Origin: Fragilariopsis cylindrus CCMP1102
Taxonomy: Eukaryota > Bacillariophyta > Bacillariophyceae > Bacillariales > Bacillariaceae
Direction of reading: 5' to 3'
Length of the DNA stretch: 64,000 nt
Assembly: GCA_900095095.1 (NCBI GenBank)
Contig: FMBT01000474.1
Location: forward strand, 18,349-82,348
Position numbers and translations under genes: made by a program. How positions within the stretch are numbered: position 1 is the first letter of the stretch; the number at the start of each line of letters is the position of its first letter. The notes under the pieces were generated by a model, which made no database searches, was not told the origin of the DNA, and saw nothing but the letters and a program-made list of their open reading frames with translations. Of the stretch, positions 46,479 to 59,035 are shown piece by piece.

Positions 46479-47517
46479 TTCGTTTATACATATGTACGAA
46501 GCAAATATAGATGCGTCCGGTGACCAAAAACAGACACGACTATATGATTTATTGAAATTCTAGTTAACAACTGTATTAATTATATCTACTACTTTATATT
46601 TCGTTTCATCACAATATATTATTGCTAGATAGTAATCCCATCGTCTGGATGGCGATTTCTAGAATTTAGTTGTTCTCTCGTGTTTTTTTGTAGGTATATA
46701 CTATATATGTATGCATGTGCATATCGTCAGCATCAACAGACTAAAAACAAAAGCTTGATACCTCCATGTAATCAGATTCTCATCACACTTTACTATTATT
46801 GAATCTAACTGCAAAGAAGCATCGTACGAATCTGCATATTACATACTTTATCGCAAGTTGGCAGAAAAGACATGTACTAATATCTAGCTGCTAGTGCATA
46901 TGATAGCGATCATCGAAGAAAGAGAATTATTTGACGAGAGAATAATAACAGAAAGAAAACTTGATACATAGTTGAATTGAATCGAGATTACTTTAATAGG
47001 TAGAATACTATATCAACAGTAGAAGTGGAGTACTATTCTATCCAATGAACAGACTAACTCACCTTGAACTCATACTGATTGAGCGAAACCGAAACTTTTA
47101 CCACAAAACAGTAATGCATTTAAATTAAAACAAGATTAATTAACAAGATTTAAAAAAATGACGACTTGACTCACTCGACTCTTCACTCTTTTTTTGATAC
47201 AACAGAGGTACCATGCGCGTGACCGTTATGAAAACCTACTCCGAAAACCTAATTAACCATAAATGCGAAAAAATTAAATAAATAAAAATGTTCTAGCTAC
47301 GTGCTTAGCTAGCTAGTAGTACTCTGTATCAGCTGAACTGCGAACTACCAGAATATAATATTATCACAGAAGTACTAGTAGCAGGCAGAAGAAAAACGCC
47401 AAACTAACTGTCACAAACATACTGTGTACATGTGACTGGGACAATAAGAACATAAAACAAAAGAGGCAAATCGCAAATCACAAGGACGTCTTGAATCACA
47501 TCGTCTGACGTTTGCCA
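46479..47517. other. Intergenic, no gene seen
   Basis: About 1 kb of AT-rich sequence between two plus-strand genes, closed in all frames. It contains TATATACTATATATGTATGCATGTGCATA near 46693-46722 and AGCTAGCTAGTAGTACT near 47308. It should include the 3' UTR of the first gene and the promoter of the second. Confidence 0.45.
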
Positions 47518-49563
47518 ATGATGATTACCAACAATGGCACGACGATGATGACGACGTCGACGTCGACGATAGACAATAGTAAACAGTATCATCATCATGC
47601 AGCAAAGAAACTACAGTTACAAAGACCACAAAGAAAAATATCACATCTTCGGTTGGCCATGTATCTTGTTGGAGTTATGACTTTGTCAGTTCCGTACTTT
47701 TTGATCTCCTTTTCATCTATTTCATCGTCGTATCAGCAACAATCGTCTTCCACCATCAATAATGATTGTAGTGATGATGATAACAATAATGCAAATGCAA
47801 ATGCAAATGCATTTTCTTCTATATTGGCTGATAGCAAGGTATCATCATTATCATCATCGTCGTCGTCGTCGTCGTCATCGTTGTCGGTACATCGTCATGA
47901 TCAGCAACAGAAACATCAAATTCTTCCACCGGTATATAGTCTAGAACATCCACTAAATCATTCTCCATATAAAATCCTCCATACGGTTATGACACGTTTT
48001 ATGGTCGGTCAATCAAACGCAAAGTACGAATTGGCAAGGGCACGGTATTTATTATTTGAAAGTTTTTGTTGGCCAACAATCCAATATCAAACATCCAGAA
48101 ACTTTTTTTGGTTAGTACTAGTGGATCCAGGTTTGGACAGCTCCATAATTAATGATATGAAATCATTATTGAATGCTGTACCAACGGGTAACGCGTATAT
48201 GATATTAACAAATAACACAGCATGGTCTGCTGATGGTGTAGGAGTTGAAAATGTTACCTCCTATGGTGTTGGATTACAAACTATCGTTGAAGAATATACA
48301 AATGGTAAATTAAACATCATTACAGGAAATACAACATACTTATTACGTGCCTTAGATTGGATGACGAAACAACAACAAGTAGAAGAACCCCAATATAACA
48401 ACAACAACAACAACAACAACATCGAAACTAGTAAGCCGATCATGGTCATCGAAACATTGTTAGACGCAGATGATGGAATCAACAATCACGGTGTGGAATG
48501 GATTCAAGACGTTGCTATACAAAGGACGAAAGAACATCAGCAGCAGCAGCAACAGCAACAATCACCAGCACATCAATATCCTCTTCATCCTACATTAAAT
48601 TCTACCTGGTGGTTCTTATGTGGAACGGATCATATTGAATGGCACAATAGAGACATATTTAAATTAACAAATGAAGAATATATGGAACATGGTATCACAA
48701 GTGGATTAGCTGGATTACGTCAAAGTCCATACTTTTGTACATCTGCTGGTTTTACAAGAATCGGTATTACTACCACTACCACCACGAGTACGCCGATGAC
48801 AATACGTAGTGCATCATTGTCGTCTTCATCGTCATCGTCATCCCCATTCAAATTTCCCAATGATGCGTATAGCAATCACGCATTAGCTTTTTACTTTCCT
48901 GAATGCACCAGTACTAATACTACTACGGCTACGTCTACAAATATCAATAACAATGGGAACTATTCACATTGTTGGCGACGTGAATTTTCGGGAGAAGCAT
49001 TCGTTCTTAAATCACGGACAATAACAAGTGATTCTATGGATCATATGAATCCAAGAAAGACAGATGATTATCGTGATGTTGCATGGTTGAACAAAACCGA
49101 TTATCCATTACTGATTAATGAAACAGAACGGATGTGGAATGTATTAACAAAAGAATTTGCAATTGATCGACACCATGCATGGGAAACTAGTACATACATA
49201 TTCGATAATCGGCGATTAATTTTACGACAAAATAAGGACTCGCGATGTTCACCAGGATTTCCATGTTACAAGGAAGCTAAAAAGAATCTAATAAGAATGG
49301 AAAAATATTGGTTGGGTCAAACGAAGCAGGCTATCATTGATAAGAAGAATATAATGGATAAAATACATCAGCTTGCAGAAGATAAGAGGAAAAGAGATTC
49401 AGCAATTACAGATGCAAAACTTAGAGTCGAACAGGATCTGATAAAGGCAGAAGATAAAAGGAAGAGAGATTCAGCAATTGCAGATGCAAAACTTAGAGTC
49501 GATCAGGATCTGATAAAGAAATGCAAAATCTACCCACAAAATGCGATATGTACGAAAAAATAA
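47518..49563 (+). CDS. Rhamnosyltransferase-like (PF11316-type) type II membrane glycosyltransferase
   Basis: The protein has 681 aa from the ATG at 47518. A short cytosolic tail and a membrane anchor (LAMYLVGVMTLSVPYFLISF, ~43-62) are followed by a Ser/Asn-rich stem. The catalytic region begins ILHTVMTRFMVGQSN, ARYLLFESFCWPTIQYQ, FFWLVLVDPGL, ending near IETLLDADDGIN (the D-x-D-D nucleotide-sugar site), WWFLCGTDHIEWHNRDIF and SAGFTRIG. Ser/Gln/Asn runs interrupt it. A C-terminal part (FSGEAFVLKSRTITSDSM, ERMWNVLTKEFAID, GFPCY) is shared with the copy at 57.4 kb. A Golgi glycosyltransferase is the likely role. The end is elongated by a 72-bp tandem duplication (49375-49518). Confidence 0.75.
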   Translation: MMITNNGTTMMTTSTSTIDNSKQYHHHAAKKLQLQRPQRKISHLRLAMYLVGVMTLSVPYFLISFSSISSSYQQQSSSTINNDCSDDDNNNANANANAFSSILADSKVSSLSSSSSSSSSSLSVHRHDQQQKHQILPPVYSLEHPLNHSPYKILHTVMTRFMVGQSNAKYELARARYLLFESFCWPTIQYQTSRNFFWLVLVDPGLDSSIINDMKSLLNAVPTGNAYMILTNNTAWSADGVGVENVTSYGVGLQTIVEEYTNGKLNIITGNTTYLLRALDWMTKQQQVEEPQYNNNNNNNNIETSKPIMVIETLLDADDGINNHGVEWIQDVAIQRTKEHQQQQQQQQSPAHQYPLHPTLNSTWWFLCGTDHIEWHNRDIFKLTNEEYMEHGITSGLAGLRQSPYFCTSAGFTRIGITTTTTTSTPMTIRSASLSSSSSSSSPFKFPNDAYSNHALAFYFPECTSTNTTTATSTNINNNGNYSHCWRREFSGEAFVLKSRTITSDSMDHMNPRKTDDYRDVAWLNKTDYPLLINETERMWNVLTKEFAIDRHHAWETSTYIFDNRRLILRQNKDSRCSPGFPCYKEAKKNLIRMEKYWLGQTKQAIIDKKNIMDKIHQLAEDKRKRDSAITDAKLRVEQDLIKAEDKRKRDSAIADAKLRVDQDLIKKCKIYPQNAICTKK

Positions 49564-50811: not shown

Positions 50812-51888
50812 TCATTTCGATGGATTTTTTTCATTCTTGTCGTCGTCGTTGTTGTTCTTTTCATTATCTTCAACATTATTATTATTACTATTACTATCAT
50901 TATTATTAAAGATTTCATTACAGATCTTCAATAATAAATTGATTTCCTCCCTTGTAAATCCACAGAGTGTAATAGTTTTTAGTTTATGTGAATAAGCAGC
51001 AGAAGCGATATTCTTGCTGATACCATCGACATCCTTATTTTCGCACTGCTCTTTCTTCTCCTCCTGTGATGGTTCTGATCCTGTTTCTTTTTCCCCTTCC
51101 TTTTCTTTTTTCGGATCATCAGGAATAGTAACGCAATCACCATAATCCAAAGTATTAGTAGCATCAATGTCAATAATATAATCACGAATAGCAATAATAC
51201 CTATCCGTAATACATCTTCTTGGGAACGATTACCACGGAAAATACCTGCTGACAATAATGAAAATCCAACATCTGTTATCATATTTTCATTGTTACATCT
51301 TTTAAGTGAATTTTGATATGCTGATCTTAGTAGTGAATCAGGAACACTAAATTCATTACTATCATTTCCATTATTATTATTTTCATCACCTGATGAGTCA
51401 TCATCATCATCATTATTATTATTATTATCCGGAAACTGAAAATAAATTGGTCCAACAGCATGAATGACATATGGAACTTTAAGTGATCCATAATTATTTG
51501 GACCAGTAATAACAGCACCACCCGTCGGACAACGAATTTCGACAGCACCACTAGCACTAGCACTGCCACTACTACGTCTACGTCTACGTCGTGTACCATC
51601 TGCTGTTATTATTTGTACTACAGGAAGTTCTTCACGATCTTTCCATAGATTTTTTCCACCAGCATTATTAATGGCACCATCCACACCACCACCACCTAAA
51701 CATCGTTCATTTGCAGCATTGACAATAGCACCAATTCTTTTGTTGTTGCTTTTGTCGGAAGTAGGTGCAGTAAAATCTACTACAGAACCACGAACAATAT
51801 TTAATGAAATTATTGGTGTATTATTATTCCCGCCACTATTATTACTGCCGACAAGACCAAATGTTGCGACCGTTTTTAATACACCCAT
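50812..51888 (-). CDS. Macro-domain (ADP-ribose-binding/hydrolase) protein
   Basis: The protein has 358 aa from the ATG at 51888. The macro fold shows IVRGSVVDF, GAIVNAANERCLGGGGVDGAINNAGG (residues ~48-75) holding the catalytic-type Asn and the GGGG-VDG ADP-ribose loop, CPTGGAVITG, PYVIHAVGPIY, and VGFSLLSAGIFRGN. MacroD-type enzymes remove mono-ADP-ribose from proteins or deacetylate O-acetyl-ADP-ribose. A poly-Asn/Asp loop after the fourth strand and a basic insertion (RRRRRRSSG) are host-specific expansions. The Lys/Glu-rich C-terminal half ends in an Asn/Asp run. No transit peptide is evident, so cytosol or nucleus is likely. The retained NAAN and GGGG motifs suggest activity. Confidence 0.87.
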   Translation of the reverse strand: MGVLKTVATFGLVGSNNSGGNNNTPIISLNIVRGSVVDFTAPTSDKSNNKRIGAIVNAANERCLGGGGVDGAINNAGGKNLWKDREELPVVQIITADGTRRRRRRSSGSASASGAVEIRCPTGGAVITGPNNYGSLKVPYVIHAVGPIYFQFPDNNNNNDDDDDSSGDENNNNGNDSNEFSVPDSLLRSAYQNSLKRCNNENMITDVGFSLLSAGIFRGNRSQEDVLRIGIIAIRDYIIDIDATNTLDYGDCVTIPDDPKKEKEGEKETGSEPSQEEKKEQCENKDVDGISKNIASAAYSHKLKTITLCGFTREEINLLLKICNEIFNNNDSNSNNNNVEDNEKNNNDDDKNEKNPSK

Positions 51889-52399: not shown

Positions 52400-53028
52400 A
52401 TGCTGCTGTACCATTCCCGTACTCTAACTTTAATGATCGGTTATTCTGTTTTTGTGATGTCGTCCATCACAATGATGATGAAAATAATAATAATGCAACA
52501 GCATAATAATATGCAGCGACAATTATTCGTTTGTTCCTTTACGACGACGGTACCAATGATTCGTCGTCGTTATAATAATAAGACTCATCAGATATTTTCG
52601 AGACTATATCATCATCGCAGCAACAATCAACAGGATAATATTCCCAACTTATTCTTACTATCAAGAAAAGGATCTGATTCTCGCACTACTCGATTATTTT
52701 CGTCGTCGAACAACGATAATGACGACGACACTACTAGTAGTACTGTCACAACAACAACGTTAGTACGACCTATGGAAAATATATATCGTGAATGGACATT
52801 AGAACAAGATCAATTACTTTGGTTGAATAGTAGTGGAAAGAATAAAAATAAATCGACGGCAGAACTGGCAGTTTTATTGGGAAGAGGTATGCGAGGTGTG
52901 GAACAGCGTTTATTAAAATTAAAAGATGTGGAATCATCCGTATATCAACGTATGTTTGTGAATAATAATAATAATCAGAATAACAACAGTAATAAGGACG
53001 ACGAAGGCGAAAAAGACAATAATGGTAA

Positions 53029-53061
<33 letters not shown>

Positions 53062-54424
53062 ATCGAATACAAGAAACAAAAAGTTAATTCCGGTATCAGA
53101 AGTATTACGAAGAATAGAATGGGATTATCAATTAAATGAAAATGATTTTTATATATTACATTATGATCGTGTGGATGATACAATAGTAACATCCTCATTA
53201 ACAGCATCCAATAGCAACATAGATTCTGGTGAAACATCTCTGATAAAAGCATTACCAGAACATCGGATTATGGCGATTAAATATAAGGAACGGATTGTTT
53301 GGGATCGTCGACAGAATCGTAAATATGATATTGTATTTAATGCACCAGGGATTATCGATGTAATACAAACATATGAGGAATGGGAAACTAAATGTAATGA
53401 ACGATTACAGATGTCAAGAATCATGCAAAATGAATGGAATGAACGATGGATGGATTTATTAGAATCATCAGAAACTAAAAAAGAACGATTATTTAAACTT
53501 ACAAAAGATCTTCTTGTCAGCAGCAGTGATGCTGGCAGTGGCAGTGGTAGTAACGATGATAGTAGTGAATCTCAAATCATCCATACGAAACAAAAAGTCG
53601 ATTTTTATCTTCCTTCTATCATTGAATTGTTTCGTGAAGGAGACTTTTTTAGTACAACAACAACAACAATAGAAACTACGACCGAACAAAACGATGATGA
53701 TCTACAGATGGCAGACTATCCTCCATCTTCTACTAAAACTGATAGTAATGGAAGATTGGTATCACTTCTTGACGAATTATCAGAATGGGTTGCTTCTCCC
53801 TACTGGACTGACTTTGACGATGACGATGACTATACTGAAATTGATGACAAAGACGACAATAACGAAGAACAGAACATACTCCGTGAAACACTTTTACAAA
53901 AAATATCGTCCACAATGGATCGATTGGAAGGGAAAGAGTATACTGTGAAAGAAAAAATGCAACAGTCCTTGAAATCAAAAAAGAAGCAACAAGTATCGCA
54001 ACAACAACAACAAGCAGCGAGTAGACTAAATAATATTCAATTGAATGACAATGATATAGAGGAATCATTCGTACGTGGATCTGGTGCGGGTGGTCAAAAG
54101 GTGAATAAAACAAGTAATTGTGTTGCCTTACTTCATACACCAACAGGTGTACGAGTTGATTGTCAAGATACACGTTCGTTGCAACAGAATCGAAAAATTG
54201 CACGTAAGCGTCTGAAAGAGAAATTAGATTTGTTTTGGAATGGTTCCAATTCGAAACAATCCATGAAACAAGTCCAAGCCAGTAAGAAGAAGAAAAAGAC
54301 GAAATTGAAAAATAAGTCCAGATTGAAAGAAAAGAAATTATCAAAGAAACAACAATTGTTGTTACAACTTGAAGAAAAGGAAAAGGAGGAGGAGGATGAA
54401 GAAGAAAAACAATTTAATGAATAG
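52400..54424 (+). CDS. Myb-like + DUF504 (MJ1316) + GGQ release-factor domain protein, organelle-targeted
   Basis: The protein has 674 aa and no intron. The N-terminus is basic and hydroxylated (RRRYNNKTHQIFSRLYHHRS, LLSRKGSDSRTTRLFSS), consistent with a mitochondrial or plastid presequence. Residues ~128-183 form a Myb/SANT-like module (REWTLEQDQLLW, AELAVLLGRGMRGVEQRLLKL). Residues ~228-315 match the DUF504/MJ1316 RNA-end-recognition domain: SEVLRRIEWDY, NDFYILHYDRVDD, PEHRIMAIKYKERIVWDRR. An Asp/Thr-rich linker follows, then a class-I release-factor domain at ~545-615: FVRGSGAGGQKVNKTSNCVALLH, PTGVRVDCQDTRSLQQNR, ending in a Lys-rich tail as in ICT1/MTRFR rescue factors. The GGQ hydrolyses peptidyl-tRNA; codon-recognition domains are absent, which fits ribosome rescue rather than normal termination. 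Confidence 0.85.
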
Positions 54425-57364: not shown

Positions 57365-59035
57365 ATGAATTTGGCCCAACGAAGAACGGGTCATAATAAT
57401 CCAACAATATCTCCGGGCAATGCTTTCAAATATTCGTCGTCGTCTTCAATCCGTAAAGTCAACAACCGCCGTAATGTTGCGGTCGTGGTCGCATCTTTGA
57501 GTATCATATGGATTGGTATTTCTTTCCTTACATACCAGCATCTACCTAGTGTTTCAACAAACACTAACAGAAAGGATATACATTCGGTTGTCTTATCGAA
57601 TCATGGCTGTGATAAATTATCATCGACGACGATGACGATAACAACAAAAAAGAAGAATAAAGGACACGATGCTCGTAGAAAAAAATCAACACTTTCTCCC
57701 TACCGTATCGTTCATAGCTTGACGACACGATTTATGGTCGGTCAACCCAATCAACCGATTTTGGCAAGGGCGCGGTATCTTCTCTTCGAAACGTTTTGTT
57801 GGCCAACAATACAATATCAATCAGCTTTACCAGAGGATTATTCTTGGTTTGTATTAGCTGATCCAGGAATTGATCAAGAAGTTATCGCCGATTTACGCGA
57901 GTTGTTATCATACGACAAATTTCCAGAAGGGAATGCTTATCTGATACTAACTGACGAACCATCATGGGCAGCAGATGGTGTTGGTGTGCCTGGTGTTACC
58001 TCGTACGGAGTATCCTATCAAGAAATTGCACAGGGTGTGAGGAATGGTAAAGTGAAATTGCTAACGGGAAACGCAACACGATTGATCCAAACTTTGGAGT
58101 ATAGTATAGAGGGGAAGATGTATGATAGTAGTATCAGAAACAATATAAACAAAAGCGAGGATTATAAACCACTTTTGCTCATCGAAACCATGTTGGATGC
58201 CGATGATGGATTGAACAATCACGGAATTGAATGGATTCAAGATCTAGCTATTTCTCATACCCAACAACAGCAAAAAATGATAGCAACGACTAACCGCAAC
58301 GAACAACCTTCCCTGAACTCTACATGGTGGCTATTGTGTGGAACGGATCATATTGAATGGCACAATCGTGATATCTTTAGACTGACCGATAGCGAATACC
58401 AAGACATCGGACTGACAAGTGGCATTACCGGTATTCGTCACGCTCCACAGTACTGCGCATCGGCTGGATTTACACGAGTAGGTTTAACGACGACTAGGTC
58501 AATGACAACATCCAAAAGCAACAACGATTCAAGACCAAAAATCTCTCGTATTTCCGCAAGTTGCGTATAGTAATCACGCTTTAGCGACTGAGAATTTTGA
58601 CCTTTGCGATGATAAGAAAAATATTACCTTGGCTCGATGTTTTCGACGAGATTTTTCTGGTTTGCCCTTCATCCTTAAGTCACGAAGTATTACCTCCGAT
58701 TCGATGGTCATATGGATCCAAAACGCGAAGACTATCGAGATCTTCCATGGGAGGGTAAGATGGACCACCCTCTGGTGATAAATGAAACGGAAAAGATTTG
58801 GCGGATATTACAAGACGATTTCTCGATCAATCGTCTCATGGCATGGGAGACTAGTATGTACCTAAGGGAAAATTTGGAATCAATCATTCAGGAAAACAAA
58901 AAGAGTCGTTGCGCCCTGGGTTTTCCCTGTCGGGAGGTTGCTGATGTAACCTTTAAGAAAATGTCTCTGCATATTAAGAAAATGAACAAGATGAACTTGG
59001 TAGATGCATCGAAGAAGCAGAAAGCCACGATGTGA
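57365..59035 (+). pseudogene. Second rhamnosyltransferase-like gene with two compensating frameshifts
   Basis: The first 401 codons are intact and closely resemble the copy at 47.5 kb: RFMVGQPNQPILARARYLLFETF, DADDGLNNHG, WWLLCGTDHIEWHNRD, SAGFTRVG. It then reaches TAG at 58568-58570. Conserved sequence continues in the +1 frame from about 58540 (FPQVAYSNHALA, RRDFSGLPFILKSRSITSDSM) and returns to the original frame after about 58707 (MDPKREDYRDLPWEGK, LGFPC), to a stop at 59033-59035. So two single-base changes of opposite sense, one between about 58490 and 58550 and one deletion near 58707, separate it from an intact gene. It has an anchor (VVVASLSIIWIGISFLTY) and fewer amino-acid runs than the first copy. 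Confidence 0.75.

Follow-up and report, generated by a model that had tools for sequence, protein, structure and literature searches.

An MJ1316 domain and a C12orf65-type release-factor domain joined in one frame of the diatom Fragilariopsis cylindrus

What might a protein do that carries an MJ1316 (DUF504) domain, of a family named for the recognition of RNA ends, ahead of a release-factor domain with a GGQ loop? The question is raised by a gene of Fragilariopsis cylindrus CCMP1102 that lies in a stretch of 64,000 nucleotides (contig FMBT01000474.1, positions 18,349 to 82,348 of the forward strand), and this whole stretch is referred to here as the window. An earlier note, made from the letters of this DNA, had described one intact frame with a Myb-like module, a DUF504 signature and a class-I release-factor domain lacking a codon reader, and had suggested that the product links RNA damage to the rescue of stalled organellar ribosomes. 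Our analysis points to a C12orf65/MTRFR-type peptidyl-tRNA hydrolase that would rescue organellar, most likely mitochondrial, ribosomes and that carries an RNA-binding MJ1316 module N-terminal to its GGQ domain, a reading to which we give a probability of about 0.6. The parts of the protein are listed below in window coordinates with the evidence for each, including the ratio of nonsynonymous to synonymous substitution rates (dN/dS) between two copies of the gene.

52400–54424 (+): MJ1316-domain/C12orf65-type release-factor fusion, 674 aa (open frame, Pfam, dN/dS)
52400–52765 (+): residues 1–122, basic, fast-evolving N-terminal extension, probably an organelle-targeting presequence (dN/dS 1.15, charge counts)
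52766–52954 (+): residues 123–185, conserved, probably helical module (dN/dS 0.105; low-confidence helices in the model)
53090–53308 (+): residues 231–303, MJ1316 (DUF504) domain, PF04457 (Pfam E 1.9e-13, 51.3 bits)
53348–53524 (+): residues 317–375, constrained segment after MJ1316 (dN/dS 0.141; low-confidence helical prediction from a poor model)
54032–54337 (+): residues 545–646, RF-1 domain, PF00472, with GSGAGGQ catalytic loop, C12orf65/MTRFR type (Pfam E 4.6e-24; 7a5h match)
54236–54364 (+): residues 613–655, lysine-rich C-terminal tail as in rescue-type GGQ proteins (16 K/R and 1 D/E of 43)

Domain architecture of the fusion protein

The gene is a single open frame of 674 codons at exactly the coordinates first proposed, running from the ATG at 52400 to a stop that ends at 54424, with no internal stop. 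Its two domains were recovered by the profile search that the earlier note had asked for, and both scored above the curated Pfam cut-offs. The MJ1316 match (51.3 bits against a cut-off of 26.3) covers profile positions 3–75 of 75, and improved to E 1.4e-14 when residues 226–340 were scanned alone. The RF-1 match (85 bits against a cut-off of 35) includes the GSGAGGQ loop at residues 560–566, in which the GGQ is intact. No codon-reading PCRF domain (PF03462) was found in the protein at E up to 10, whereas Pfam detected this domain in frames at two other loci of this diatom that encode release factors (L020, L022). Long low-complexity linkers separate the domains. The fusion of DUF504/MJ1316 with a GGQ domain is thus real and well supported.

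The Myb-like label is not supported. Residues 120–190 gave no Myb/SANT match in Pfam, the sole Pfam match of the conserved stretch at residues 123–185 was to HVO_A0114 (E 0.16, below the cut-off), and the same stretch had no match among PDB sequences at E up to 10; the predicted models were too poor to judge its fold.

A second copy and selection on both halves

As long linkers part the two domains, neighbouring genes or exons could have been read through as one frame, and the earlier note had itself named two separate genes as the outcome that would undo its proposal. A second copy of the gene contradicts this. It was found on another contig (C46) of the genome examined (67.9 Mb, 818 contigs), shows 94% amino-acid identity, is colinear in its flanks on both sides, and its frame, like that in the window, is open throughout; we read it as allele-like, that is, as probably the other allele. 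All seven insertions and deletions (indels) that separate the copies within the frame have lengths divisible by three, among them indels of 15 bases in the low-complexity linkers, compared with only one of the 17 aligned in the flanks (14 upstream and 3 downstream, one of them, of 2 bases, immediately upstream of the ATG; Fisher p 2.3e-5). A fusion of these two domains is moreover in print (PMC6514570, section 2.5). We therefore regard a gene-model artefact as very improbable.

The dN/dS between the copies was 0.35 overall and varied along the protein, each regional value being based on few changes: 1.15 for residues 1–122, 0.105 for residues 123–185, 0.235 for the linker at 186–226, 0.20 for residues 227–345, 0.141 for residues 317–375, 0.47 for residues 346–543, 0.09 for residues 544–612 and 0.034 for residues 613–674. 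Judged by these ratios, the MJ1316 and GGQ domains are both under purifying selection, and taken together the values agree with a single translated product whose presequence is loosely, and whose two halves are more tightly, constrained.

The window protein is a further example of a published fusion, so that the idea behind the earlier note is sensible but not new. Burroughs and Aravind (2019) presented a C12orf65/MTRFR–MJ1316 fusion in section 2.5 and Fig. 4C of PMC6514570, with the same two domains in one protein and the same functional proposal, a coupling of organellar RNA damage to rescue. Their section 2.5 names no organism, however, and the text of that paper in the part available makes no mention of the conserved N-terminal module and low-complexity linkers seen here.

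Type of release factor

The GGQ part of the protein is most similar, among PDB sequences, to the C12orf65/MTRFR chain of 7a5h (104 bits, E 5.3e-29), with a gapless alignment over residues 546–650 in which 54 of 105 positions are identical. Lower scores were obtained for 2rsm, also C12orf65 (84 bits), a mitochondrial RF1-like factor (47), bacterial RF2 and RF1 (at most 43), PrfH (41.7) and ArfB (18); the C12orf65/MTRFR chains of 7a5h and 2rsm are presumably human and mouse. Sequence similarity thus places the fusion protein with the C12orf65/MTRFR-type factors, with which it shares a GGQ domain that aligns without gaps, a basic C-terminal tail and the lack of a codon-reading domain. It differs in size and make-up, as the 7a5h chain is only 166 residues long, without a match to the MJ1316 part, whereas 544 residues precede the GGQ domain in the fusion protein.

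ICT1 and ArfB are codon-independent GGQ rescue factors too, but the match of the fusion protein to ArfB is much weaker (18 bits against 104 for C12orf65). Nor is this the ICT1 gene, because the genome has a separate one. That ICT1-like gene (L023 1730–2533, contig C462) spans 399 bases for profile positions 5–112 and occurs in a similar place on contig C592, apparently as two copies. A stretch in its N-terminus ends in LAFTT, which resembles a diatom plastid-targeting signal. The alpha-i insertion, a feature of ICT1 (PMC6514570), is absent from the fusion protein, as the gapless alignment with C12orf65 over 105 residues shows, and the likeness to ICT1/ArfB is that of codon-independent GGQ rescue factors as a group (PMC9674279, PMC12319706). 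The fusion protein is also distinct from PrfH, scoring 47.5 bits against a PrfH cut-off of 166.65.

The same genome holds SmpB as well as two or more genes that encode a PCRF domain. Three further GGQ places, of whatever class, were found on contigs C139, C397 and C36, hence the fusion protein is perhaps not the sole C12orf65/MTRFR-type factor of this diatom.

Probable compartment

The N-terminus of the fusion protein is basic, with no acidic residue in its first 60 positions, and the residues R-L-F-S-S at 98–102, with the break between F and S, resemble a mitochondrial processing site. Alternatively, the hydrophobic start could belong to a plastid signal. The protein would be nuclear-encoded and imported into an organelle, and we incline towards the mitochondrion, the compartment of C12orf65.

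The MJ1316 domain and its archaeal relatives

For comparison, 24 MJ1316 relatives were found by profile in 60 archaeal genomes of one phylum. Six alignment columns are invariant in all 24, and the fusion protein matches five of these with R257, P286, H288, R289 and Y295; in the sixth, archaea have I and the fusion protein has L285. W241 corresponds to a residue present in 20 of the 24. The archaeal open frames are small (80 to 160 codons), so no fusion like that in the window occurs among the 24. Retention of these conserved residues makes an intact RNA-binding face slightly more likely, and the weaker of two gene-neighbourhood results, given below, makes it less likely by about as much.

The loop of the archaeal domains (L064–L087) occurs in a short form resembling (I/V)DRPKG and in a longer form, (H/D/S)RG(A/S/C/M)P, with a two-residue insertion; the window protein carries the short form (YDRV). 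We rejected the idea that it had lost an invariant archaeal HRGAPGD loop, since the 30-protein sample that suggested this came from a bait using the motif as its search pattern, and the exact HRGAPGD occurs in only 3 of the 24 profile-found relatives. Elsewhere in the diatom genome, a short frame (L025 1357–1773, contig C523) gave weak overlapping matches to MJ1316 (E 7e-4, below the cut-off) and to a PPPDE peptidase (E 8e-4), probably by chance.

A proposed mechanism

We propose that, on an organellar ribosome that has stalled or split, the N-terminal helices and the MJ1316 domain would make contact with RNA that is exposed or has been cleaved. This RNA may be the cut end of an mRNA or tRNA, or else the anticodon arm of the peptidyl-tRNA, which is the site of the separate protein MTRES1 in mammals. 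The lysine-rich tail would bind ribosomal RNA or the mRNA channel, while the GGQ loop would enter the peptidyl-transferase centre and hydrolyse the peptidyl-tRNA, as MTRFR is described to do in stalled or split mitoribosomes (PMC12319706, PMC9674279). In such a factor, an upstream RNA-binding module could serve to find the substrate. That the RNA feature read by the MJ1316 module is a 2',3'-cyclic phosphate end is the most uncertain part of this proposal.

The N-terminal half may instead bind RNA in general and dock the protein on the split large subunit or the peptidyl-tRNA, as a built-in substitute for MTRES1 that reads no damaged end. We consider this a possible explanation, with about half the weight of our preferred reading. 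PMC9674279 favours nonstop ribosomes as the site of MTRFR action, objects that in the MTRES1 structure the distance between the GGQ and the catalytic centre is too great, and did not see MTRES1 recruited when MTRFR was lacking. The conserved MJ1316 residues are also kept in the fusion protein, although a mere docking module would not need them.

Gene neighbourhood and RNA-end chemistry

A slightly less probable explanation is that the fusion protein is a cleaved-RNA sensor coupled to repair. In this model mRNA, tRNA or rRNA is cut on the ribosome of the organelle, the MJ1316 domain would bind specifically to the resulting 2',3'-cyclic phosphate ends, the peptide would be freed by the GGQ domain and the end would then be repaired. 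The MJ1316 family name and the published proposal (PMC6514570) both point this way, as does the retention of most of the conserved archaeal residues. An analogous case is PrfH, which acts on ribosomes cut by colicin E3 and releases the peptide, after which RtcB2 reseals the ribosomes (PMC9223846); the likeness is one of concept, a release factor tied to RNA-end repair, as PrfH is a separate gene beside RtcB and no RtcB was detected in this genome.

Archaeal gene neighbourhoods gave further, though conflicting, evidence. RNA 3'-terminal phosphate cyclase makes 2',3'-cyclic ends, and a gene of this RtcA type was found within 3 kb of MJ1316 in 4 of the 24 loci scanned (84 neighbour frames) from a bait-found sample of 31:

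L030 3001–4308, L048 1982–3222, L056 3001–5541 and L058 3001–4793: MJ1316 near RNA 3'-terminal phosphate cyclase

The two genes lie side by side on the same strand in L030 and L048. CBS-domain proteins were commoner than the cyclase near bait-found MJ1316 genes (5 frames against 4). In the profile-found sample the cyclase occurred at most once, so that the neighbourhood link to cyclic-end chemistry is suggestive at best; the commonest neighbours there were ArsR-type regulators (PF09824; 6 of 62 frames) and argininosuccinate lyase (4), the latter beside the MJ1316 gene in L064, L066, L068 and L072.

Within the diatom genome, the RNA 3'-terminal phosphate cyclase (RTC) family is represented on contigs C269, C484, C80 and C545, apparently as two genes in two copies each. 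Tpt1 was matched in two pieces, the first with internal stops, which indicates an intron or a decayed gene. Both families would be in keeping with end repair.

Four results weigh against our preferred reading of an organellar rescue hydrolase with an RNA-binding MJ1316 module, and the first two also against the sensor coupled to repair. RtcB (PF01139) was not detected in the genome as assembled, which is possibly incomplete, while the same search gave matches in 9 of the 14 control genomes, whose names are all prokaryotic. The cyclase was found in at most 1 of 23 profile-found archaeal loci (23 of the 24; 62 neighbour frames in 1.5 kb flanks), as it was absent from the families seen twice or more, which are the 25 listed of 66 families. 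No relative of MJ1316 with a solved structure was found among PDB sequences, and structure prediction gave poor models with no usable fold match. In addition, no direct end-binding test of any MJ1316 domain was found in the open literature, seen mostly as listings, a further point against the sensor coupled to repair. With no RtcB detected, no ligase is evident that could take up a cyclic end, and if an end is sensed here, it is probably not resealed by RtcB afterwards. The inference from RNA damage to rescue in the earlier note agrees with the proposal in PMC6514570; a repair step is not supported, as no RtcB was detected.

A single-chain, damage-triggered factor would combine elements of these explanations, the MJ1316 domain sensing cleaved RNA on the split large subunit in the place of MTRES1 and licensing hydrolysis by the GGQ domain without RtcB. 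We regard this as a speculative version, clearly less probable than either a docking module or a sensor coupled to repair.

Neighbouring genes in the window

A macro-domain protein (window 50812–51888, −; PF01661, E 1.7e-18) is encoded 0.5 kb from the fusion gene and in divergent orientation. Its nearest PDB matches, over a short stretch, are macro domains of bacterial and of MACROD type. The ADP-ribose cyclic-phosphate by-products of Tpt1-type tRNA repair can be substrates of macro domains; the placement beside the fusion gene is curious, but one neighbourhood proves nothing. Further out, the locus is flanked by frames at 47512–49563 (+) and 57365–58570 (+), which share TRFMVGQ...LARARYLLFE(S/T)FCWPTIQYQ and look like paralogues of one family.

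Implications for MTRFR-type rescue

What MTRFR recognises is disputed, with the split large subunit and the nonstop ribosome as the two candidates (PMC9674279, PMC12319706). That an RNA-end domain is fused to such a factor, and is selected in both copies of the gene, suggests that at least one lineage uses exposed or cleaved RNA as its cue; the fusion protein offers a test case for this. If the single-chain, damage-triggered version were true, the damaged translation complex would be discarded and not repaired, and the most interesting cue would be a tRNA cut in its anticodon loop.
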